Position numbers and translations under genes: made by a program. Under the pieces are notes generated by a model. It was not told where the DNA came from and did no database searches. It was given only the letters and a program-made list of their open reading frames with translations. A stretch of 64,000 nt of DNA from Mycolicibacterium chubuense NBB4 (GTDB lineage Bacteria > Actinomycetota > Actinomycetes > Mycobacteriales > Mycobacteriaceae), in contig NC_018027.1 of NCBI RefSeq assembly GCF_000266905.1, forward strand, positions 806,001 to 870,000, written 5' to 3'. Below, piece by piece: positions 28,738 to 40,174 of this stretch. The number at the start of each line of letters is the position of its first letter. The stretch's first letter is position 1.

Positions 28738-31389
28738 TCAGCCGGGCGCCCACAGCGGCGTGGTCAGCCTCAGGTCGCCGATGGGCTCCTCGGCAGGCCG
28801 CGTCAGCCGTACCGCGTACATGCCCGGCTCGAGGCTCGCAGTCGGGATGTCGAGCCGCCCGAACCCGTCGCGTTTGCCGACGGCGACCACGGTGCCGTCC
28901 CGGTCGAGCAGTTCGGCGGTGACGGGCAGCTCGGCCAGTCCGTCGGCGGCCACCGAGATCGACTCCCCGATCAGGGTGCCGAACGACGGCGGCTCGGCGG
29001 CCAACTCGACGCCGAAGTGCATCGTCGGGTCAGGCCATGGGATCGGGTCGCGAATCGCCCACCACGGTGGCAGCACCTCGTAGGTGGGCAGGTCTGCGAT
29101 CTGGATCCGCGGGTCCGCCGTCATCGTGATGCCCAGGACGTAGCGGGTCTGCTCCGACGCGGAGATCTTCAGGTAGCAGTTGGTCCGTTCGGGCGGCCGC
29201 AGAGTGATCGAACGCCTCGACTCGTGCCTCTGCAACTCGCGGCGTCCGTCGTCGTACAGCGTGGCGGTCACCGGTTTGTCCGACGTGATGGTCACCAGGG
29301 GGACACGCTTGCCGTCCGCCCTGGGCACCGGGAACCAGAAGTAATCGCTGTCGACGACCACCGTGACGTTGTTCGGAAACGTCGGTGACGCGATCAGCTG
29401 CCGGTGCAGCGTGAGCGCGAACACGCCGGGCCCGTGCCCCAGATAGATGTCGAGCGGTGTGCGGACGAAGCGCAGCGGGGTCGCGGTGTCGAAGGAATTG
29501 TTGGGCTCGAACCGGTCCACTTCGAGAGGCTCTGCGGTGCAGGCCACTTCGAGGTTGTAGGCGGTGAGCCCGATGGCTCGGACCCGCACCAGGTACTTGC
29601 CGTCGGGCAGCACGCCGCGACCGCGGATCACGCCGTCGCCGTAGGTGATCTCGAAGCGGTCGCCGTCCGTGTCCTCGACCCCGACGACGCTGTCCCCGGA
29701 CGAGTCGATGACATCGAGGAAGAGGTCGGCGATCCGGTCGTAGTAGTCGACCGTGATCGCCACCGAGGTGTACTCGTCGAGCTGGAGAGACCAGAAGTCG
29801 ATGTCGTGATCATTTCTGGCCGCCGACAACGAATCCCACCGCGGCGCGAACACGCCGGGCCGCACCTCGATCAACGGCTCGGCCGCCGAGGGGTCGTCAC
29901 CGGCGTCGAACCAATCCGGCAGTTGCGAATTCAGGGCCGCCTTCACCGCGGCGTAGGCGTCCAGCCCCTTGGTGACCCGCCCCTGACCGTCCCAGCCGCT
30001 GTCGATCAGCAGGCGCCCGACGTCCGAATTCGACAGCGAGGGCGCCACGGCGCGCATCATCGCCGCCGTGCCGGCGACCAGCGGCGCGGAGAACGAGGTG
30101 CCGCTGGGCCGTGAACCGCGGGGATTGTCCCCGTCGGGCATCACGGGAATCTTGGTTCCCGGCGCCCAGAGGGCCACCGACGACCCGTAGTTCGACCAGT
30201 CCGCCGCCGACACGTTGTCCTTGTCGAGCGCGCCGACGGTGAGGACGCCGGGCGTGCGGGTGGCAGGACGAATCCACTCGTCGGGCAGCTCCTTCCCGTC
30301 GTTGCCCGCCGACGCGATCATCACCACACCGTTGTCGGCGGCGAACTGGAATGCGTTGACCCAGTCGGTATCCGGGAAGAACAGGCCCTCCCAGACGGTG
30401 GTCGTGATGCCGAAGCTCATGTTCACCACGTCGATCCCCCAGGCCGCGCAGATGCGGATACCGCGCATGATCGCGTCGAGGTCGTCGGCCTTCATCAACA
30501 GCGGCCACGCCACCGATCCACCCGAGCCGGCGGCGCCGCGCCCGTTGTCCACCGTCGCTGCCGCGGCGCTGGCGGTCTTGGTGCCGTGCCACCCTTTCGC
30601 AGAGCGTCCCCCGATGTTCCTGCTGTCGTCGGCGGCGTTGATCGCCAGGAAGCCGCGGTCGAAGTCGGACGCCGATTGCCCGGACGGAATCAGCGGAGCG
30701 CCGGTGGAATCCACCCAGAAGCCGTTGTCCATGATCGCGAGCATGGTGAACGACGTGTCGGTGCCGGCGAGGCGGTACGAGTCCACGAGTTGCCAGGCGT
30801 CGACGATCCGCGAGCGTGTCACGAACGGTTGCCATTGCATCGGATCGGGGCCGGGTGGTTTCTTGACGTCCTCCCGGATCGTGTCCAACGGCAGCGCGGT
30901 CGGGTCGGCCAGATGGTTCAAGCCGACGGAGCCGTCGGGCAGCCCGAGCGACAGCGCGGCCACGGACACCGACGCGGCCATCGTCGAGGAGAACGTCAGG
31001 CGTCCTCGTACCGATGCCCGGTCGGTGATCTGCCCGAGGAGATTCACCGCGTCCGGTACTTCGGGCGGTTCGGTGAACGAGACCTTGATGCTGTGTGTCG
31101 GCGCGTCGGCCTCGCTGGGCCGACGCCCGGAGCGTGCCAGCCGGGCGGGCGGTGGCGGCAGCGGCCGAGGGGGGATCATCGTGCCGCCCAGACGCTCCAC
31201 CAGGTACTCCACCGCCTCCGGGTACTCGGAGCTGACCAGGATCTCGTTCTCCGCAAAGACGGCGGGTGCCGTCTCCGAGCCGTCGAGGTGCATGGCCCCG
31301 GCCCTCGACACCCGGTCTGTGGACCGCAGGTGCGCCGTCTTGGCGGCGAACGAGTACGGCCGCACGAATTCTTCGGGGATGTTCACCAT
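28738..31389 (-). CDS. Subtilisin-like serine protease (S8) with C-terminal beta domains
   Basis: An 883-aa S8 peptidase. The catalytic triad is visible: Asp221 (LAIMDNGFW), His268 (KGWHGTKTAS) and Ser432 (SGTSFSAPLVAGTAAMM), with the oxyanion Asn363 (ASAGNDG). Before it is a 190-residue N-terminal region and after about 520 an all-beta tail with repeated DxDRFE/DRFEPNNSF segments, resembling prepeptidase C-terminal type domains. There is no signal peptide or hydrophobic anchor, which is unusual for a subtilase. Its start is ATG 31389. The upstream 74 bp contain no other gene. Substrate unknown; a housekeeping or intracellular role is an inference. Confidence 0.85.
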   Translation of the reverse strand: MVNIPEEFVRPYSFAAKTAHLRSTDRVSRAGAMHLDGSETAPAVFAENEILVSSEYPEAVEYLVERLGGTMIPPRPLPPPPARLARSGRRPSEADAPTHSIKVSFTEPPEVPDAVNLLGQITDRASVRGRLTFSSTMAASVSVAALSLGLPDGSVGLNHLADPTALPLDTIREDVKKPPGPDPMQWQPFVTRSRIVDAWQLVDSYRLAGTDTSFTMLAIMDNGFWVDSTGAPLIPSGQSASDFDRGFLAINAADDSRNIGGRSAKGWHGTKTASAAAATVDNGRGAAGSGGSVAWPLLMKADDLDAIMRGIRICAAWGIDVVNMSFGITTTVWEGLFFPDTDWVNAFQFAADNGVVMIASAGNDGKELPDEWIRPATRTPGVLTVGALDKDNVSAADWSNYGSSVALWAPGTKIPVMPDGDNPRGSRPSGTSFSAPLVAGTAAMMRAVAPSLSNSDVGRLLIDSGWDGQGRVTKGLDAYAAVKAALNSQLPDWFDAGDDPSAAEPLIEVRPGVFAPRWDSLSAARNDHDIDFWSLQLDEYTSVAITVDYYDRIADLFLDVIDSSGDSVVGVEDTDGDRFEITYGDGVIRGRGVLPDGKYLVRVRAIGLTAYNLEVACTAEPLEVDRFEPNNSFDTATPLRFVRTPLDIYLGHGPGVFALTLHRQLIASPTFPNNVTVVVDSDYFWFPVPRADGKRVPLVTITSDKPVTATLYDDGRRELQRHESRRSITLRPPERTNCYLKISASEQTRYVLGITMTADPRIQIADLPTYEVLPPWWAIRDPIPWPDPTMHFGVELAAEPPSFGTLIGESISVAADGLAELPVTAELLDRDGTVVAVGKRDGFGRLDIPTASLEPGMYAVRLTRPAEEPIGDLRLTTPLWAPG

Positions 31390-31463: not shown

Positions 31464-33803
31464 CTACCTGACTTGGGCGAGCCAGGTGAAGAACTCGTCG
31501 GCGCAGAACACCGGCTTGCCGAACTCCTGGGCCTTGCGGGCCTTGCCCGACTGCGTGCCGGCCTCGGCCGTCACGAGCACGTCGCAGCGGGTCTTGCTCA
31601 CCGACTTCACCGGCGTCAGTCCCGCCGACTTCGCGAGCTGCTCCATCTCCCAGCGCTCCACGACCCGGCCCGCCGCGTCCTGCGCCGTACCCGTGAAGCA
31701 GATCCGGGCGCCGGGCGTCAGGGCGTCGTCGAGAGAATGCCGGCTCGCGGGAGTGAGGTCACCGGCGATATCGCATCCGAGCAACGTCTCCGCTTCCCGG
31801 AGCCGGGTGAGCACCTCGTCGGTGACGGGCACCCGCGCCGCGGCCGCGCGCAGCTGATCGGCCACCGACCGTCGCGCGGCCGCATCCACCGGCGAGTCCA
31901 GGTGTCGATGCCCGCGGGCGCCCAGCAGTACCGGGCCGACCTCCTGGCTGATCCGCAGCAGCGCGGACAGACCGGGCAGATGATCGGCCGCCGGTGTGGA
32001 CACCGACGGGTCGCGGCTGACCAGAAGTCCCGACTGCTCGACGGAATCGGGTTCGTCGAAGGCCGACGACCCCGCCTCGACCTCGGCACCGTCGTGTGCC
32101 GCCAGCGCCGAGCGGGCCCGCTCCAGCGCGGTGCGGCCGGTCACCCGCGCACCCCGCAGCTCGACCCCCAGCGGCATCGCGGTCACATGACCGAGTCGCT
32201 TGAGCTCGAAGTCGATCAGGCCGAGCTGCTCGTCGACCCCGGCGCCCACCGGCGTGCAGCCCGCGAGCATCGGGGCGATCACCGCCCACGCCTCCCGCAG
32301 CGTCGGCGCCAGCAGCACATCGGCCACCGTGATACCGAAAGCCGTTCGCGCGTCGGCGAGATCGCGTTGCGGGTTGATCAGCGTCGACACCGCCGTGCCG
32401 TCGTCGAACGCGACCGCGAGCTCGACGGGCCGCGGCCGCGACATCCGGCCCTCTTCCCCGACCGTCAGCATGCCGATCGCGCAGTACCGTCGCGCCTGAG
32501 ATGCCGGTGCCGCGCTGCGCAGGAATCGGGCGATGCGCCGGTCGGTCTTCAGATCTTTGGGCAGCACAGGCCTTTTCAGCACCAACCCGGCCAGAGAGGT
32601 GCAGCGACTCAGCGCCACGTAGAGCTGTCCCGTGGAGAACATGCCACCGGTGAGGTCGACGACGAGCCGGTCCAGCGTCTGGCCCTGGCTCTTGTGGATC
32701 GTGATCGCCCAGGCCAGTTTGAACGGCAATTGCGTGTAGGACCCGATGACCTCGCGTGTCAGGGAGGACCCCGAGACGACGGGGCGGGTGGCCTCCCAGG
32801 TGTAGGGCGCGACGTCGGCCACTGTTCCGTCGGCGAACTCGACCACGACCACGGCGCCGTAGCGGTCGTAGTCGACACCGACCACCCGCCCGAGGGTGCC
32901 GTTCACCCAGCGGTCGGCCTGGTCGTTGTTGAGCATCATCACCTGCGCGCCGACCTTGAACCGCAGCGTCTCCTCGACGGGCGGCTCGAACAGCGACAGG
33001 TCTCCCGACGCGCGGGCGTGATGGACCATCTCGTCGCCGGGCAGCCGTTCCAGCCGCTGCCGGTTGCGCGCGGTCACCAGCCGGTTCGTCGGCGCCAGCG
33101 TCAGCCAGAACTCGTCCACAGGCGGCACGAAGTCGGCGTCGGCACGGGCGTTGAGCTGCTCCTGCGCGTGCCCCAGCAGCACCCCTTCGCGAATCTCGTT
33201 GAGAATGGCCGTCATTCGATCGTCCCCGAGCTGGCGGAACACCGTCGTCAGCGACACCGTGGGGAAGTCCTCGCGGCGGAAGGAGTGTGCGGAGAAGAAG
33301 TACGGCGTCTCGTAGGTCGTCGTGAAATGGCCCGCCTCGTGCTCGCTGACCACCGGCGGCAGCTGATAGAGATCACCGACCAGGACGATCTGCACGCCTC
33401 CGAACGGGGTGCCCGGCGCGGGCCCGAAGCGTTCGAGTGCGGCGGCGACCATGTCGAACATGTCCGCGCGGACCATCGAGGCCTCGTCGATGATCAGCGT
33501 CTGCAGCCCCGCCAGGGTCTTGGTGAACCGGCCGGGCCGGTACTGCCCGCCGCGGATGTCGTCGAGCGTGGTCGTGGTGCGGAACCCGAACAGCCGGTGG
33601 ATCGTGTAGCCGTCGACGTTCAGCGCGGCGATGCCCGTCGGCGCCACCACGACGACGGTGCGGTCGGTGCCGGCCATGAAGCGGCGGATCAGGGTGGATT
33701 TGCCGGTGCCGGCCTTGCCCGTCAGGAAGAGGTGCTCACCGCCGGCGAGCAGGTCCAGCGCGTGGCGGAACTCGTCGGTGAGGACGATCCCGTCGAGCGT
33801 CAT
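31464..33803 (-). CDS. PIF1-like helicase with exonuclease-like middle and C-terminal BRCT domain
   Basis: A 779-aa multidomain protein. Residues 1-440 form a Pif1/RecD-like helicase: Walker A GKAGTGKST (29-37), PTGIAA, Walker B LIIDEASM (D106, E107), GDLYQLPPV, and late motifs AITIHKSQGQTL and YVALSRCTS. A segment near 480-600 resembles a DnaQ-type nuclease fold (AFDDGTAVSTLINPQRDL, then DVLLAPTLREAW) but lacks the usual DxE catalytic pair, so it may be inactive. The C-terminus (about 690-779, RICFTGT...KSVSKTRCDVLVTAEAGTQSGKARKAQEFGKPVF) is a BRCT domain. Start ATG 33803 fits the family start MTLDGIVLTDEF. Roles in DNA repair or replication-fork handling are inferred. Confidence 0.85.
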   Translation of the reverse strand: MTLDGIVLTDEFRHALDLLAGGEHLFLTGKAGTGKSTLIRRFMAGTDRTVVVVAPTGIAALNVDGYTIHRLFGFRTTTTLDDIRGGQYRPGRFTKTLAGLQTLIIDEASMVRADMFDMVAAALERFGPAPGTPFGGVQIVLVGDLYQLPPVVSEHEAGHFTTTYETPYFFSAHSFRREDFPTVSLTTVFRQLGDDRMTAILNEIREGVLLGHAQEQLNARADADFVPPVDEFWLTLAPTNRLVTARNRQRLERLPGDEMVHHARASGDLSLFEPPVEETLRFKVGAQVMMLNNDQADRWVNGTLGRVVGVDYDRYGAVVVVEFADGTVADVAPYTWEATRPVVSGSSLTREVIGSYTQLPFKLAWAITIHKSQGQTLDRLVVDLTGGMFSTGQLYVALSRCTSLAGLVLKRPVLPKDLKTDRRIARFLRSAAPASQARRYCAIGMLTVGEEGRMSRPRPVELAVAFDDGTAVSTLINPQRDLADARTAFGITVADVLLAPTLREAWAVIAPMLAGCTPVGAGVDEQLGLIDFELKRLGHVTAMPLGVELRGARVTGRTALERARSALAAHDGAEVEAGSSAFDEPDSVEQSGLLVSRDPSVSTPAADHLPGLSALLRISQEVGPVLLGARGHRHLDSPVDAAARRSVADQLRAAAARVPVTDEVLTRLREAETLLGCDIAGDLTPASRHSLDDALTPGARICFTGTAQDAAGRVVERWEMEQLAKSAGLTPVKSVSKTRCDVLVTAEAGTQSGKARKAQEFGKPVFCADEFFTWLAQVR

Positions 33804-33823
33804 GGACGCCCAGGATAGCGGCG

Positions 33824-33886: not shown

Positions 33887-34570
33887 TCAGCGGCCGTTGC
33901 GCCAGGCGCGCCAGCCGCGGTGGGCGGCGAAGGCGCCCGCCACCGCCGTCATCGACCAGACGACGATCGCCGTGATCAGCAGCGGCAGCGAGAACTCGCC
34001 CAACGTCGAGCCCAGCGCCGTGTAGGCGAACGCCTTGGGCGCCGACCCGATGAAGGCGCCGACCGCCAGCTGCCACAACGGGACCCCGAACGCCCCGAAC
34101 GCATACGACGCCAGCGCGTCGTTGATGCCCGGCACGAAGCGCTGGCCGACCACCGCCCACAGCCCGGCCCGGACGATGAGCCCGTCGACCCTGTCAGCGC
34201 GGTCGGGCCCCAGCAGCGCCCGGGCGCTGCCGCGGCCGGCCCGGCGGCCCGCGAAGCCGGTCAGCACCGCCGATCCGACCGTCGCCCCCAGCGTCACGAA
34301 CGTCCCCAGGACCGGGCCGAACAGGAACCCGCTGCCGCCGGCCAGCAGCGGACCGGGCACCAGCAGCGCCCCGAGGACCGACGACACCAGCACGTACGTC
34401 AGCGGGGCGAAGGGACCCGTCGAGCGGACCAGTTCGCGGACCGCATTCACGTCGATGACGCGCTCGATGGCCGTCAGGTAGAACAGCACGGCCAAACCCG
34501 CCGCGAGCAGCGCCAACCGCAGAACGTGGCGGCGCCGCGACGTCTCGGGAGTGCCTTCGCCGTCAACCAT
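33887..34570 (-). CDS. TVP38/TMEM64 (VTT/SNARE-associated) membrane protein
   Basis: A 227-aa membrane protein of the DedA-like VTT/TMEM64 family. It has a first helix VLRLALLAAGLAVLFYLTA, then the domain core: GPFAPLTYVLVSSVLGALLVPGPLLAGGSGFLFGP, FGAFGVPLWQLAVGAFIGSAPKAFAYTALGS. These proteins act in lipid scrambling or membrane homeostasis. The ATG 34570 is divergent from the next operon (40 bp gap). Confidence 0.85.
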   Translation of the reverse strand: MVDGEGTPETSRRRHVLRLALLAAGLAVLFYLTAIERVIDVNAVRELVRSTGPFAPLTYVLVSSVLGALLVPGPLLAGGSGFLFGPVLGTFVTLGATVGSAVLTGFAGRRAGRGSARALLGPDRADRVDGLIVRAGLWAVVGQRFVPGINDALASYAFGAFGVPLWQLAVGAFIGSAPKAFAYTALGSTLGEFSLPLLITAIVVWSMTAVAGAFAAHRGWRAWRNGR

Positions 34571-34610: not shown

Positions 34611-35225
34611 GTGAGTGTGACGGTGGGGGAGCTGACCGGGACCGAGCGAGCGGTGCTGCTCGTGCTGATGACCGAGTCGCGGCCCGTGTCCAACCCGGAG
34701 CTGGCCGTCCTCGGCCCGGCGCTGGACAAACCCGGCCGTGACAAGCTCAACCGGCTGGGCCTGATCGAGTCGGACCGCGTCCAGGGCCGCTTCGTCCACG
34801 AGCTCACCGACCGCGGCTGGCGGCTGTGCCGCGACATCGTCGACGCCGGTCCGCCGCCGCGTTCGACCGGCCCGGCCAAGACGCTCTACACCGTGCTGGG
34901 TTCGCTGGGCCGCTACCTGCAGCGCGAGCAGCTGAGCCTGGCCGACCTGTTCTGGCCCGCTGCCGAGGAGACCGTCGAGGACCGCGTCCGCGCGGCGTAC
35001 ACCCGGTTGGCGCCGCGCCCCGGCGGCTGGGTGCGGCTGAGCCGGCTGCGCGCCGAACTCGACGATCCGCGCGGCGACGTCGACAGCGCGCTCACGGCGC
35101 TGCACGGCAGCCGCGGCATCAGCGTGATCCCCGAAGAGGACCAGAAGGAGCTGACGGCCGAGGACCGTGCCGCGGCAGTGGTGATCGGGGACCGGCCCAA
35201 GCATCTGATCGCGATCGAGGCGTGA
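34611..35225 (+). CDS. Uncharacterised winged-helix-like protein, partner of the dual ATPase
   Basis: A 204-aa protein with no clear family. Its first third looks like a winged-helix domain (TERAVLLVLMTESRPVSNPELAVLG, then RDKLNRLGLIES, ELTDRGWRLCRDI), and a second wHTH-like unit follows at about 125-190 (VRAAYTRLAPRPGGWVRLSRLRAEL, DVDSALTALHGSRGISVIPEED). GTG 34611 is chosen for a leaderless -10 box TACCGT 7 nt upstream; GTG 34617 is possible. The stop overlaps the next ATG by 1 nt (TGATG), so the two proteins are co-translated and probably interact. Function unassigned. Confidence 0.75.
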   Translation: MSVTVGELTGTERAVLLVLMTESRPVSNPELAVLGPALDKPGRDKLNRLGLIESDRVQGRFVHELTDRGWRLCRDIVDAGPPPRSTGPAKTLYTVLGSLGRYLQREQLSLADLFWPAAEETVEDRVRAAYTRLAPRPGGWVRLSRLRAELDDPRGDVDSALTALHGSRGISVIPEEDQKELTAEDRAAAVVIGDRPKHLIAIEA

Positions 35226-38200
35226 TGGACCTTCTGCAGCGCGACGCGCTGGCCTCGCTGCGCCTGACGTGGGCGCCGACCGCCGACGACCTGTGGCGCC
35301 CGCAGGCCGCCACCCACGTGCGCGGGCTCAACGAGCACGCCGTCGACGACGTCATGGACGCGTTCGGCGATGCCCGGAGCGATCCGGCGTCGGCGCCGCT
35401 GGGCGTGGTGATCCGCGGGCCCGCGGGCTCGGGCAAGACGCACCTGCTCGGTCAGATCCGCGAGCGGGTGCAGGCCGAGGGCGGCTATTTCTTCGTCGTC
35501 GAGCTGCTCGACGCCGCGAGCTTCTGGCAGTCGGTGCGCAGCGGCATCCTCGAGAGCCTCGGCCGTCCCGGCGCGCAGCGCGAGACGCAGCTCAAGGACC
35601 TGCTGTGGGAGCTGTCGTCGATCGCGCACGTGTCGCGTGCCGACCGCCGCGCGATCATCGGCGACGACGACCTCGAACCCGAGACGCTGGACCGGTTCGT
35701 CACGGCCCTCGCGGGTGCGGCGAAAGAGACCGTGCGGCAATGCCATCAGACGTTGCGCGCGCTGGTGCTGCTCGGTGCGGCCGATTTCACCGCACACGAC
35801 ATCGGCGAGGCCCACCTGCAGGGCAGCGAGGAGTTCGGCGGGGACGACCGCGGCCACTGGGGGCTGCGCGCTGCGCCGGAGTCGGCGCAGGTGAGCGTCC
35901 GCGACATGTCGCGGCTGATCGCGCTGGCCGGACCCGCCGTGCTGGCGGTCGACCAGATCGACACGCTGCTGGCGCAGTCGGTGGCCGGCGGGGAGAGCGA
36001 CGGTGTGCTGGAGCAGGTCGCACACGGGTTGATGGCGCTGCGGCAGACGATGCGGCGCACGGTGCCGGTCGTCGCGTGCCTGCCCGCGGTGTGGGAGCGC
36101 ATCCGCGACCACGCGACCGCCAGTGTCGCCGACCGCTTCCGGGTGACGGGTGTGCTGGCGCCGCTGCCGACCGCCGACATCGGCCGCGCGATCCTCGAAC
36201 GCCGCTTCGTGGCGAGCTACGCGGCGAAGGGGTATGCGCCGCCCTACCCGAGCTGGCCGATTCTGCCCATCGCGTTCGACGAGGCGCCGTCCTACACCCC
36301 GCGACAACTCCTCATCCGGGCCGACACCCATGTGCGGGAGTGCCTCAAGCACGGCGAGGTCGTCGAACTCGCGCACCTGCGCGCCGATGCGCAGCCGACG
36401 TGGGACACGCAGTCCGGCAGCGGAAGTGATCTCCTCTCCACGGCACTGGACCGGCGCTTCCTGGAGTGCCGCCGCCGCGCGGTGCCCGGGGCCGCCCTCG
36501 ACCCCGAAGGCGAAGACGTGACGATGCCCGAGCTCCTCGGCGCGGCGCTGACGGCGTGGATCGCCGAATGTGACGGGGAGCAGACCTACGTGTGCGACCC
36601 GCCGCCGGGCGCGCACGTCGTGCTGCACGCCCGGCTGCGGCAGAGCCTCGACGCCGCAACCGACGACCAGCGGCACTGGGCGTTTCGCGCCATCGCCGCC
36701 TCCAACGCGCTGGCCGCGCAGAGCCGCATCCGCAAGGCCTTGACGGCTACGGGGTTGGTCCCGGGATCGGACCGCCGGCAGCTGTTCCTGCTGCGCAACA
36801 CTTCGTGGCCCACCGGGCCGAAGACCGCCGCGCTGCTCGACGAGGTGCACGCGGCGGGCGGGCGCACCCTACCGCTGTCCGACGACGACCTGCGGACGAT
36901 GATCGCGCTGCGGGACCTGTTGGCCGACAACGATCCCGAGCTCCCGGCCTGGCTGAGAGCCCGGCGCCCGGCACACGGACTGACCCTGCTGCGCGGTGCG
37001 CTGGGTGCCGACGGCGCCACGGTGCAGCCGGTCGCTCCGGAGCCGGAGCCCGAGCCCGCGGCCGATCCCGAGCCGGAGCCTTCGGCGGCGTTCGACGTGC
37101 CGGACGACGAGATCCCGCTGGGCCTGGACCTGCACACCCGCGAACCCGTCTCGATCGAACTGTCCGCGCTGCGCAAGCACATCGCGATCTTCGCGGGCTC
37201 CGGGTCGGGCAAGACCGTCCTGATCCGCCGCCTGGTCGAGGAGTGCGCGCTGCGGGGGGTGTCGTCGATCGTGCTGGACCCCAACAACGACCTGTCGCGG
37301 CTGGGCACGCAGTGGCCGGTGAAGCCGACCGGGTGGCGGCCGTCCGACGATCCGCGCGCTGCCGAATACCTGCAGGGCACCGAGGTGCGGATCTGGACGC
37401 CGCGCCGCTCGTCGGGCAGGCCCCTGGCGTTCCAGCCGCTGCCCGACTTCGCCAGCGTCCTCGACGACCACGACGAGTTCAACGACGCCGTCGAATCCGC
37501 GTGCGCAGCACTGGAACCGCGCGCGCTGATCGCCGGCCAGACGCAGAAGGCCAACCGCGCCCGGGCCGTCCTGCGAGAAGCCCTGCAGCAGTATGGAAGA
37601 ACGCCGGCACCGACGTTGCCGGGGTTCGTCGACATGCTCGCCGACCTGCCCGACGACACGAGCAATCTCGCCGATGCGCGCAAGATCGCCGGCAGCTTGG
37701 CGCAGGACCTGCGTGCGGCGATGGTCAACGATCCGCTGTTCGGCGGCGCGGGCGCGCCGGTCGATCCCGGTGTGCTGCTGACTCCGTCGGACGGCTACCG
37801 GGCCCGGGTGTCGGTGATCAGCATGATCGGCCTGTCGTCCGACGAGCAGCGGCAGGGTTTCGTCAACCAGTTGCAGATGGCGCTGTTCGCGTGGATCAAG
37901 CGCAACCCGGCCGGCGAGCGTCCACTCGGCGGGCTGCTGGTGATGGACGAGGCCCAAACACTGGCGCCCGCCAAGGGTTTCACCGCCTGCACCCGCAGCA
38001 CGCTCGCCCTGTCGTCGCAGGCCCGCAAGTACGGCCTCGGGCTGGTGTTCGCCACGCAGCATCCCAAGGGGCTGAACCTGCAGATCCCCGGCAACGCCGC
38101 CACGCAGTTCTACGGGCTGCTCAACGCGCCCGCCCAGATCGAGACGGCCCGCGAGATGGCGCGCGCCAAAGGCGGTTTGGTGCCCGACATCAGCCGGCTG

Positions 38201-38332
38201 AGCGCCGGCAACTTCTACGTCGCCACCGAGGGGGAGGCCTTCCACCGGATCGTCGCGCCCTGGTGCCTGTCGTATCACCCGTCGAGCCCACCGTCGGCCG
38301 AAGAGGTGCTCTCCCTGGCGGTTTCGGCGTGA
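35225..38332 (+). CDS. Two-headed P-loop protein: AAA ATPase joined to HerA/DUF87-type ATPase
   Basis: A 1035-aa protein with two nucleotide-binding halves. The N-terminal half carries Walker A GPAGSGKT (65-72) and a Walker B-like AVLAVDQID (D243), followed by a wHTH-like segment. After an acidic Pro-Glu linker (PEPEPEPAADPEPEPS, about 605-620) comes a HerA/FtsK-like half: Walker A AGSGSGKT (657-664), Walker B GGLLVMDEAQ (D908, E909), and VFATQHPKGL. HerA-type motors translocate DNA, often beside a nuclease such as NurA or Sir2. No known defence label (e.g. BREX, DISARM, HerA-Sir2) fits clearly, although the N-terminal half is reminiscent of PglY/BrxC. The upstream winged-helix protein overlaps by 1 nt, and the following gene by 4 nt. 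Confidence 0.8.
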   Translation: MDLLQRDALASLRLTWAPTADDLWRPQAATHVRGLNEHAVDDVMDAFGDARSDPASAPLGVVIRGPAGSGKTHLLGQIRERVQAEGGYFFVVELLDAASFWQSVRSGILESLGRPGAQRETQLKDLLWELSSIAHVSRADRRAIIGDDDLEPETLDRFVTALAGAAKETVRQCHQTLRALVLLGAADFTAHDIGEAHLQGSEEFGGDDRGHWGLRAAPESAQVSVRDMSRLIALAGPAVLAVDQIDTLLAQSVAGGESDGVLEQVAHGLMALRQTMRRTVPVVACLPAVWERIRDHATASVADRFRVTGVLAPLPTADIGRAILERRFVASYAAKGYAPPYPSWPILPIAFDEAPSYTPRQLLIRADTHVRECLKHGEVVELAHLRADAQPTWDTQSGSGSDLLSTALDRRFLECRRRAVPGAALDPEGEDVTMPELLGAALTAWIAECDGEQTYVCDPPPGAHVVLHARLRQSLDAATDDQRHWAFRAIAASNALAAQSRIRKALTATGLVPGSDRRQLFLLRNTSWPTGPKTAALLDEVHAAGGRTLPLSDDDLRTMIALRDLLADNDPELPAWLRARRPAHGLTLLRGALGADGATVQPVAPEPEPEPAADPEPEPSAAFDVPDDEIPLGLDLHTREPVSIELSALRKHIAIFAGSGSGKTVLIRRLVEECALRGVSSIVLDPNNDLSRLGTQWPVKPTGWRPSDDPRAAEYLQGTEVRIWTPRRSSGRPLAFQPLPDFASVLDDHDEFNDAVESACAALEPRALIAGQTQKANRARAVLREALQQYGRTPAPTLPGFVDMLADLPDDTSNLADARKIAGSLAQDLRAAMVNDPLFGGAGAPVDPGVLLTPSDGYRARVSVISMIGLSSDEQRQGFVNQLQMALFAWIKRNPAGERPLGGLLVMDEAQTLAPAKGFTACTRSTLALSSQARKYGLGLVFATQHPKGLNLQIPGNAATQFYGLLNAPAQIETAREMARAKGGLVPDISRLSAGNFYVATEGEAFHRIVAPWCLSYHPSSPPSAEEVLSLAVSA

Positions 38333-39354
38333 CGCGCTACATCGTCGTCGGTGCCGGCGCCGTCGGTGGGACCGTCGGCGGTACGCTGGCACGCTCCGGC
38401 GCGGACGTCGTTCTGATCGCCCGTGGTGCGCACGCCCGCGCCCTCGCCGACTCGGGTCTGCTGCTGCGCACTCCCGACGGAGCCTTCGAGATTCCGGTGT
38501 CGTCCGCGGCCGGGCCGTCCGACGTCCGGCTCACGACCGCCGATGTGCTGGTGTTCGCGACCAAGACACACCAGCTCGAGGCGGCGTTGCAGGAGTGGGC
38601 CGACCAGCCCGTGCGCAGCGATGGGCGCGAGATCGGGACTGCGGCGCAGCACCTTCCGGTGCTGACGGCACTCAACGGCGTGGTCGCCGAGGAGATGGCG
38701 CTGCGGTTCTTCGCCCGCGTGTTCGGGGTGTGCGTGTGGATGCCCGCCGCGCACGTGACGCCGGGAGAGGTGATCGTGCGGTCCTGGCCGGTCGCCGGCC
38801 ACTTCCGCATCTCGCGGTGGCCGGCGTCGTTGACCACGGCCGAAGACCGTGCGCTGCTCGACGAGATCGCGGCCGGCTGGACCGCGGCGGGCATCTTCAC
38901 CCAGCTGCCGCCCGACGTCGCGCCGTGGAAGTACAACAAGCTGCTGAGCAATCTGGGCAACGCCGTCGTCGCGCTCACCGGGGCGGAGTCGGCCGGCCTC
39001 GCCGCCGCCGCGCAGCGCGAAGGAGAAGGGATCCTCGCGACGGCGGGCATCGAGTACGTCTCCTTCGACGAGTCGAAAGCCGCCCGCAGGCAAGGAGTGT
39101 CGATGCGCCCGGTGCGGGGCGTCGAGCACGTGGTGTCGAACTCCACCTGGCAGTCCCTGGCCCGCAGCAGCGGCAGCGTCGAAACCGACTACCTCAACGG
39201 CGAGATCGTGCGCCTCGCGCACCGGCTCGGGACCGCGGCGCCGATCAACGCCACGCTGGCCCGGCTGACCCGTGCCGCCGCGCGCTCCGGCCGCGCGCCC
39301 GGCGAGTACACCGCCGGGGAACTCGAGACGCTGGTAGGAGGACTCGGTGCCTAG
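38329..39354 (+). CDS. Ketopantoate reductase/6-phosphogluconate-dehydrogenase-like protein
   Basis: A 341-aa NAD(P)-binding protein of the ApbA/PanE type: Rossmann start YIVVGAGAVGGTVGGTLARSG (4-24), the DVLVFATKTHQL region, and a C-terminal helical domain with YNKLLSNLGNA (Lys as in ketopantoate reductase). The family reduces 2-dehydropantoate or other branched 2-oxo acids with NADPH. Start is a GTG overlapping the ATPase stop (GTGA). The end overlaps the rhodanese start by 8 nt. Its role in an operon with a HerA-like motor is unexplained. Confidence 0.8.
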   Translation: MTRYIVVGAGAVGGTVGGTLARSGADVVLIARGAHARALADSGLLLRTPDGAFEIPVSSAAGPSDVRLTTADVLVFATKTHQLEAALQEWADQPVRSDGREIGTAAQHLPVLTALNGVVAEEMALRFFARVFGVCVWMPAAHVTPGEVIVRSWPVAGHFRISRWPASLTTAEDRALLDEIAAGWTAAGIFTQLPPDVAPWKYNKLLSNLGNAVVALTGAESAGLAAAAQREGEGILATAGIEYVSFDESKAARRQGVSMRPVRGVEHVVSNSTWQSLARSSGSVETDYLNGEIVRLAHRLGTAAPINATLARLTRAAARSGRAPGEYTAGELETLVGGLGA

Positions 39355-40174
39355 CCGCGACGAAGTATTCATCACCGCAAGGGAATTGGCCCGGCTTCTG
39401 GACTCGGGTGAACCGGTCACGCTGCTCGACGTGCGGTGGTCGCTGCCCGAACCCGACGGCCGCGCCGCCTTCGAGCGCGGGCACCTGCCCGGCGCGGTGT
39501 ACGTGTCGCTCGACGACGAGCTGAGCGACCACTCCGTGGACGGACGGGGCAGGCATCCGTTGCCGTCGGGATCGGCACTGCAGGCCGCCGCACGCCGCTG
39601 GGGCGTCCGGACCGGCGTGCCGGTCGTCGTCTACGACGACTGGAACCTCGCCGGGTCGGCGCGGGCCTGGTGGGTGCTCACCGCCGCGGGCATCCCGCAC
39701 GTGCGCATCCTCGACGGCGGACTCGCCGCGTGGTCGGGTGAATTGACCTCCGGCGCAGTGACTCCCGTACCCGGCGACGTGACGGTCGACCACGACGACC
39801 TGTACGCGGGCGCGTTGCGGGCCGTCACCGCGGACGAGGCGTCGTCGGCGCAGGTGCTGCTCGACGCCCGCGCGCCGGAGCGCTATCGCGGCGACCACGA
39901 ACCCGTCGACCCGGTGGCCGGCCACATTCCGGGCGCCCGCAACGTGCCGAGCACCAGCCTGCTCGACGCCGCGGGCGGGCTGCGGCCCGCGGCGGAGCTG
40001 ACCGGGCTCCTGGGCCCCGTCGGCGACGCGCCTGCCGTCTACTGCGGCTCGGGCGTCACGGCGTCGGTCGTCGTCGCCGCACTCGCGTCGGTCGGGGTGG
40101 ACGCCGCCCTGTTTCCGGGCTCGTGGTCGCAGTGGAGTTCAGACACCGGCCGCCCGGTCGCTCTCGGTGACTGA
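39347..40174 (+). CDS. Two-domain rhodanese-like sulfurtransferase
   Basis: A 275-aa protein with two rhodanese domains. The first (residues 1-125; LLDVRWSLPEPDGRAAFERGHLPGA) lacks the active Cys. The second (130-270) has the active-site loop CGSGVTAS with its cysteine, preceded by LLDARAPERYRG. This is the thiosulfate/3-mercaptopyruvate sulfurtransferase layout. GTG start 39347. The end overlaps the convergent permease gene by 36 bp. Confidence 0.9.
   Translation: MPSRDEVFITARELARLLDSGEPVTLLDVRWSLPEPDGRAAFERGHLPGAVYVSLDDELSDHSVDGRGRHPLPSGSALQAAARRWGVRTGVPVVVYDDWNLAGSARAWWVLTAAGIPHVRILDGGLAAWSGELTSGAVTPVPGDVTVDHDDLYAGALRAVTADEASSAQVLLDARAPERYRGDHEPVDPVAGHIPGARNVPSTSLLDAAGGLRPAAELTGLLGPVGDAPAVYCGSGVTASVVVAALASVGVDAALFPGSWSQWSSDTGRPVALGD

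Follow-up and report, generated by a model that had tools for sequence, protein, structure and literature searches.

A winged-helix protein and a two-headed Orc/HerA-type ATPase of Mycolicibacterium chubuense NBB4 read as a nuclease-less variant of a predicted DNA-capture operon

Introduction

What would a winged-helix protein and a large ATPase with two different nucleotide-binding heads do together in a mycobacterial chromosome? The question is raised by a two-gene unit at positions 34,611 to 38,332 of a 64,000-nucleotide stretch of Mycolicibacterium chubuense NBB4 (contig NC_018027.1, positions 806,001 to 870,000, forward strand), which was analysed as a whole and is called the window. The original prediction, made from the letters, described a winged helix-turn-helix (wHTH)-like protein coupled to a protein with two P-loop heads, saw no adjacent nuclease and proposed a DNA-translocating or defence module of a new type. 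We hold, with about even confidence, that the pair is the core of an operon which in many relatives includes a predicted DUF559-type nuclease, likely lost here, and that this core would dock on foreign DNA and hold or pump it.

Organization of the two-gene unit

The small gene shows a GTG start at 34611 and a TGA stop at 35223-35225, and the large gene starts with the ATG at 35225-35227 and ends at 38332, both on the forward strand:

34611..35225, + strand: tandem winged-helix protein, 204 aa (GTG start, TGA stop; AlphaFold2 model; Foldseek)
35225..35225, + strand: 1-base overlap between TGA stop and ATG start (sequence)
35225..38332, + strand: two-headed ATPase, 1035 aa (sequence, profile matches, model)

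The unit was compared with 86 related loci (87 with the window), 80 of which are the top-ranking ones among at least 539 relatives in a genome-contig scan, together with L015-L017 and L026-L028. According to tblastn, the small gene is directly upstream of the ATPase gene in 86/86 related loci and no more than 48 nt away in 84; the match is split in L047 and L060, hence their larger measured distance.

Presence, decay and absence of an upstream DUF559 nuclease

A plasmid search found relatives in Tsukamurella and Methylobacterium, where the small gene is immediately preceded by a DUF559 gene, which in Tsukamurella overlaps it. Across the 87 loci, tblastn detected this gene directly upstream of the wHTH gene as an intact copy in 35, as broken pieces in four (L064, L072, L085 and L098, all without the ExDG motif), and not at all in 48; separate gene calling with a filter on GC content at third codon positions recovered the nuclease family in 21 loci versus the 35 of tblastn. 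In eight of the nine boundaries examined, the stop of the nuclease gene and a possible start of the wHTH gene share four bases, (A/G/T)TGA. The four nucleases scanned all pass the Pfam cut-off for DUF559, a family which we take to be of the PD-(D/E)XK type, and the nuclease also gives a sub-threshold match to Pfam REase_MTES_1575. An alignment of 34 of the 35 nucleases (L102 omitted) shows the catalytic-type residues E258, D292, E303, D305, H309 and R321, numbered on the 366-aa reading of L065, in 34/34 sequences, and the DUF559 proteins of the relatives are predicted to cut DNA.

The claim that no nuclease is adjacent was correct for the window, where none adjoins the pair, but it does not extend to the family, given the 35 intact copies. 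Elsewhere in the host genome (G000), the operon nuclease has no relative that matches over its full length, and the same query finds it in G047 (3e-75) and G060 (7e-68). A nuclease of the same family acting in trans was rejected as a candidate: G000 has two DUF559 matches at 22-23 bits, but no such full-length relative.

A quick maximum-likelihood tree with midpoint root contains 86 rows: 35 with nuclease, four with a remnant and 47 with none. These 47 include the window and, with L060, make up the 48 loci without the gene. The tree omits L060 (split match, 862 aa) and eight further loci, L018-L025, at least four of which repeat contigs present as L038, L056, L075 and L098, and none of which has an intact nuclease. 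The label for absence needs six changes on the tree, and its rows are interspersed among nuclease rows. The window belongs to a clade of 25 rows without nuclease, within a mycobacterial set of 57 rows that also holds nine nuclease and four remnant rows; nuclease rows are found outside this set too. The lineage of the window has likely lost its nuclease.

In one Rhodococcus locus (L097, 610-9576), a complete nuclease-wHTH-ATPase operon precedes another wHTH-ATPase pair that has no nuclease of its own, as though one cutter served two cores.

Selection on the core genes

Depending on the lineage, the nuclease gene is there, broken or missing while both core genes persist, and both remain under purifying selection without the nuclease. 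By simple Nei-Gojobori estimates on high-GC DNA, the ratio of nonsynonymous to synonymous substitution rates (dN/dS) in seven close nuclease-less pairs is 0.046-0.113 for the ATPase, and the wHTH protein shows 0.086-0.289. In two pairs that set the window against a more distant relative, the values are above those of the close pairs, 0.19-0.26 and 0.29-0.39, respectively. In four nuclease-bearing pairs, dN/dS is 0.17-0.26 for the nuclease versus 0.04-0.08 for the ATPase.

Domains of the large protein

The large protein can be divided into two ATPase heads separated by a middle domain:

35225..36352, + strand: Orc/Cdc6/TnsC-like AAA+ head (head 1), residues 1-376
35417..35440, + strand: head 1 Walker A, GPAGSGKT, residues 65-72 (sequence, alignment)
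35951..35962, + strand: head 1 Walker B, DQID, residues 243-246 (alignment of 61)
36425..36934, + strand: alpha/beta domain, residues 401-570, candidate inactive restriction-endonuclease-like (helix/strand order only)
37082..38329, + strand: HerA/FtsK-class head (head 2), residues 620-1035
37193..37216, + strand: head 2 Walker A, AGSGSGKT, residues 657-664 (sequence, alignment)
37946..37957, + strand: head 2 Walker B, DEAQ, residues 908-911 (sequence, alignment)

The reading frames, the overlap, both P-loops and the intact DEAQ had all been described in the original prediction; they are seen in the sequence, and the motifs are kept in an alignment of 61 proteins (the one of the window included). 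G68, G70, K71, T72, G660, G662, K663, D908, E909 and Q911 are conserved in 61/61 of these proteins and T664 in 60. The residues D243, Q244 and D246 of the head 1 Walker B are likewise invariant across the 61. Orc/Cdc6 proteins usually have Glu where head 1 has Gln, and because Gln replaces the usual Walker-B Glu in every aligned protein, head 1 would hold ATP rather than burn it. The substitution is a natural version of the classic ATP-trap mutation.

Head 1 qualifies as an AAA+ ATPase of the Orc/Cdc6 family; it also gives weak matches to NACHT/nSTAND profiles, which in the protein of the window are under their cut-offs. Head 2 is assigned to the HerA/FtsK class by its Q sensor and the Arg finger just preceding it. 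According to Pfam, the first half of the protein contains AAA_22 (8.8e-12) and the second half DUF87 (1.3e-10), which bears out the earlier description of the second head as HerA/DUF87-like. Pfam TrwB_AAD_bind reaches 20.8 bits versus a cut-off of 20.5 at residues 642-687, around the second P-loop, covering only 46 of 387 model positions; all 41 family members match this model at E ≤ 0.1. In NCBIfam, two HerA models score 25.4 and 22.4 bits versus cut-offs of 800 and 970, TraD 22.7 versus 366 and VirB4 17.2 versus 643, and the ATPase reaches none of the FtsK, repair-HerA and conjugation models. Homology to FtsK or to a conjugation ATPase, named beforehand as a finding that would speak against a new system, is therefore not seen with NCBIfam, although the Pfam TrwB model is just passed within its P-loop segment. 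A conjugation coupling protein or FtsK is unlikely by the NCBIfam cut-offs and by the lack of transfer genes among six flanking proteins.

Structure matches of the ATPase (VIA-align) span mainly residues 623-1030, with lower-ranking ones on residues 1-480, and hardly cover the middle domain. HerA-NurA complexes are among the best matches, and VirB4/TrwB-class proteins and TnsC are also matched. By its order of helices and strands, the middle domain (residues 401-570) is a candidate inactive restriction-endonuclease (REase)-like domain. It shows no profile match to the alignment of the DUF559 nucleases, which does not by itself imply a different fold.

The tandem winged-helix protein

The AlphaFold2 model of the 204-aa protein (mean predicted local distance difference test score 93.4) shows two winged-helix units, in agreement with the earlier wHTH guess:

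34638..34805, + strand: first winged helix, approximately residues 10-65 (H-H-H-E-E order in model)
34974..35216, + strand: second winged-helix-like unit, approximately residues 122-202 (H-H-H-E...E-E-E order in model)

The top Foldseek matches of this model are winged-helix DNA-binding proteins (RosR, MarR), with a best E-value of 1.5e-3, and the sequence gives no match at E ≤ 1 among the Pfam, NCBIfam and PADLOC models. The wHTH partner of an alphaproteobacterial locus (L016, 14309-14986) shows a weak winged-helix match to DUF6293_C (0.0011) and another to a CARF-linked model (0.012), a possible tie to families that sense ring nucleotides.

Distribution, genomic site and neighbouring genes

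The ATPase was found in 73 of the 297 genomes sampled in the genus. This distribution is patchy, and the universal genus-core conservation named beforehand as counter-evidence is not seen. Two of the 73 are partial: the match in G640 begins at residue 406 and that in G705 is in two pieces. In a sample of the phylum, six of 396 genomes carry a full-length ATPase (the genome of the window counted) and six further matches are HerA-only. Similarity searches returned at least 2592 and at least 1453 proteins at E ≤ 0.001, and the named ones among the 120 listed for each are mainly from mycobacteria and Methylobacterium. No match was found in 50,697 phage records, and viral contigs gave one distant locus, with 24% identity over the HerA part only. 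One Methylobacterium copy is located on a record typed as mobilizable.

The genes that flank the unit in the window are as follows:

33890..34570, - strand: VTT-domain membrane protein, left flank, divergent, outside the system (Pfam VTT_dom 9.9e-17)
38329..39354, + strand: ketopantoate-reductase-like gene, right flank (4-nt overlap between the ATPase stop and a possible GTG start at 38329)
39347..40174, + strand: rhodanese gene, right flank (profile match)

The rhodanese gene is present in 57 of 60 genus genomes and is a near-core marker of the site. Among 30 rhodanese loci (of 58 matches), three carry the system, the one of the window included, and 26 show neither the system nor a juxtaposition of the VTT and rhodanese genes within 1.5 kb. 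In the remaining one, L129, these two genes are approximately 90 bases apart with nothing between them. The VTT protein is presumably DedA-type. The ketopantoate-reductase-like gene was rejected as a part of the system, being there in six loci only (the window, L029, L031, L033, L035 and L106). Six flanking proteins scanned with Pfam show no relaxase, type IV secretion system (T4SS) or transposase.

PADLOC marks a subtilase, a PIF1-like helicase and a permease among eight neighbours. The helicase (31467-33818, - strand) matches the PADLOC candidate PDC-S48 in its C-terminal part (5.9e-23, residues 654-782); within one Mycolicibacterium clade it occurs together with the system and the VTT gene. 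The 883-aa protein at 28741-31389 (- strand) has a subtilase domain (4.9e-24) and also matches the PADLOC subtilase model.

In Tsukamurella (L015, 11928-21991), the cassette and a PIN/VapB pair lie between rplN and rpsQ; because ribosomal-protein operons are found on it, this 'plasmid' record is probably a mislabelled piece of chromosome. A DEAD-box helicase beside the Tsukamurella copy was also rejected as a system part, since it has matches in only four of the searched loci (L015 and the window included), and the match in the window sits 6 kb from the pair.

Proposed mechanism and alternatives

We infer a defence role for the pair. The winged-helix protein and the Orc-like head would recognise DNA and close around it, and head 1, with Gln in its Walker B, would stay ATP-bound and act as a clamp. 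A ring of HerA heads would then translocate duplex DNA, and in the three-gene forms the DUF559 nuclease would cut the DNA delivered to it. The two-gene form may block an element by clamping and pumping alone, or it may borrow a host nuclease. The first of these options can be put as a tentative proposal, possible rather than probable: the ATP-locked Orc-like head would close on invading DNA and the fused HerA ring would strip or stall it independently of any nuclease, and lineages could discard the nuclease and stay protected. Close relatives carry this core with a nuclease, with a broken one or with none, a natural experiment for a predicted class of defence ATPases. It makes two matters testable, the action of a HerA-class motor without a cutter and the role of an ATP-locked Orc-like head fused to a DNA pump.

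Several observations weigh against this reading of the pair as a foreign-DNA-docking core that lost its nuclease. Within clades the family stays at one site, which equally fits a resident chromosomal gene; many flanks are housekeeping, such as the VTT protein, rhodanese and permease in the window and the ribosomal-protein genes beside the cassette in L015 and in the ten Rhodococcus/Rhodococcoides loci grouped with it. Keeping the top 80 among at least 539 relatives skews the set to close ones. Because the clade of the window keeps no nuclease remnant, it is the tree that points to the loss. In addition, the model of the ATPase shows no wHTH after the middle domain, that is, after residue 570, whereas the main text on the Orc/CDC6 'HerA-FtsK capture' class (PMC10853773; Nucleic Acids Res. 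2024, gkad1213) describes an Orc/CDC6 protein whose inactive REase follows the AAA+ core and precedes a C-terminal wHTH.

Some of these points would suit a translocase for chromosome maintenance or DNA repair, similar to HerA-NurA, in which the Orc-like head would load the HerA ring at breaks or stalled forks and the nuclease would be an optional resection partner. The high rank of HerA-NurA complexes among the structural matches, the often housekeeping flanks, the constant site within clades and the purifying selection that persists without the nuclease are consistent with it. However, a general repair factor is not expected here, because only 73/297 genus genomes, and 6/396 phylum genomes at full length, carry the ATPase; moreover, known repair HerA has NurA as its partner, not DUF559. 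We regard this explanation as unlikely.

Quite improbable is a toxin-like sensor and effector, in which the ATPase and the wHTH protein would sense infection and activate a self-harming nuclease, and lineages free of infection pressure would drop the costly nuclease and reuse the sensor. The four broken nuclease copies, the faster evolution of the nuclease than of the ATPase in the same four pairs and the sub-cut-off NACHT/nSTAND matches of head 1 point in this direction; nevertheless, a motor of 1035 aa whose dN/dS stays low once its effector is lost would need a function of its own, and the HerA head suggests a role on DNA, not in signalling. That the ATPase serves the transfer or mobilisation of an integrated element, in the manner of a coupling protein or of TnsC, is very doubtful: the structural matches to VirB4/TrwB-class proteins and TnsC, the marginal TrwB_AAD_bind match, the mobilizable-typed Methylobacterium record and the juxtaposed genes of L129 favour it, but the Pfam-scanned flanks hold no transfer or transposition gene, the TraD and VirB4 scores are far under their cut-offs and the phage records give no match.

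Comparison with known systems

The C-terminal HerA/FtsK domain of DndH (PDB 7es4) is among the closest known counterparts of the HerA/DndH-like head 2; however, the PADLOC DndH profile is matched only at 0.024 and in one relative, and no Dnd gene is found among the eight neighbours in the window. The HerA defence complexes SIR2-HerA (8wld), HerA-DUF4297 (9c1m, 8zit) and the 'anti-phage defense complex' 8xav are among the closest known systems, but in the present family the partner, where there is one, is DUF559, and the HerA head shares its chain with an Orc-like head. The best PADLOC match of the ATPase is mad8 of MADS (2.9e-21), although it covers the HerA head only (residues 630-1003). Membership in MADS was rejected, since, in a PADLOC scan of the eight neighbours (E ≤ 0.001), no other mad gene came up and just the PIF1-like helicase matched mad8, weakly (0.00024).

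No description of a DUF559-wHTH-Orc/HerA operon was recognised in the literature searched, mostly at the level of listings. The original prediction could match the pair to no nameable system, and this has to be revised, because the domain set is that of the Orc/CDC6 'HerA-FtsK capture' class. The main text of PMC10853773 describes neighbourhoods that combine an Orc/CDC6 ATPase with a HerA/FtsK ATPase, a wHTH and two REases, one inactive and one active, either within a single chain or spread over several; it suggests an anti-invader use, with the Orc part localising the apparatus and the HerA part intercepting the DNA of the invader. In the present family, the Orc/Cdc6-type AAA+, the HerA/FtsK ATPase and the wHTH stand in one operon, which in relatives also holds a REase-type nuclease that looks active, and the fusion of domains in one chain fits the wording of that text. 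The differences are that the nuclease of the relatives is DUF559, a name absent from that main text, that the clade of the window lacks a nuclease, and that the middle domain, although it lies at the expected place, is no more than a candidate inactive REase and is followed by no visible wHTH. Of the five parts of the class, the three-gene relatives have four, the fifth being uncertain, and the pair in the window has three. Because the window lacks an active REase and the host genome has no full-length relative of it, the pair is filed as a variant and not as a full member; compared with the main-text description, it reads as a new nuclease-less variant that would work like the 'HerA-FtsK capture' class.

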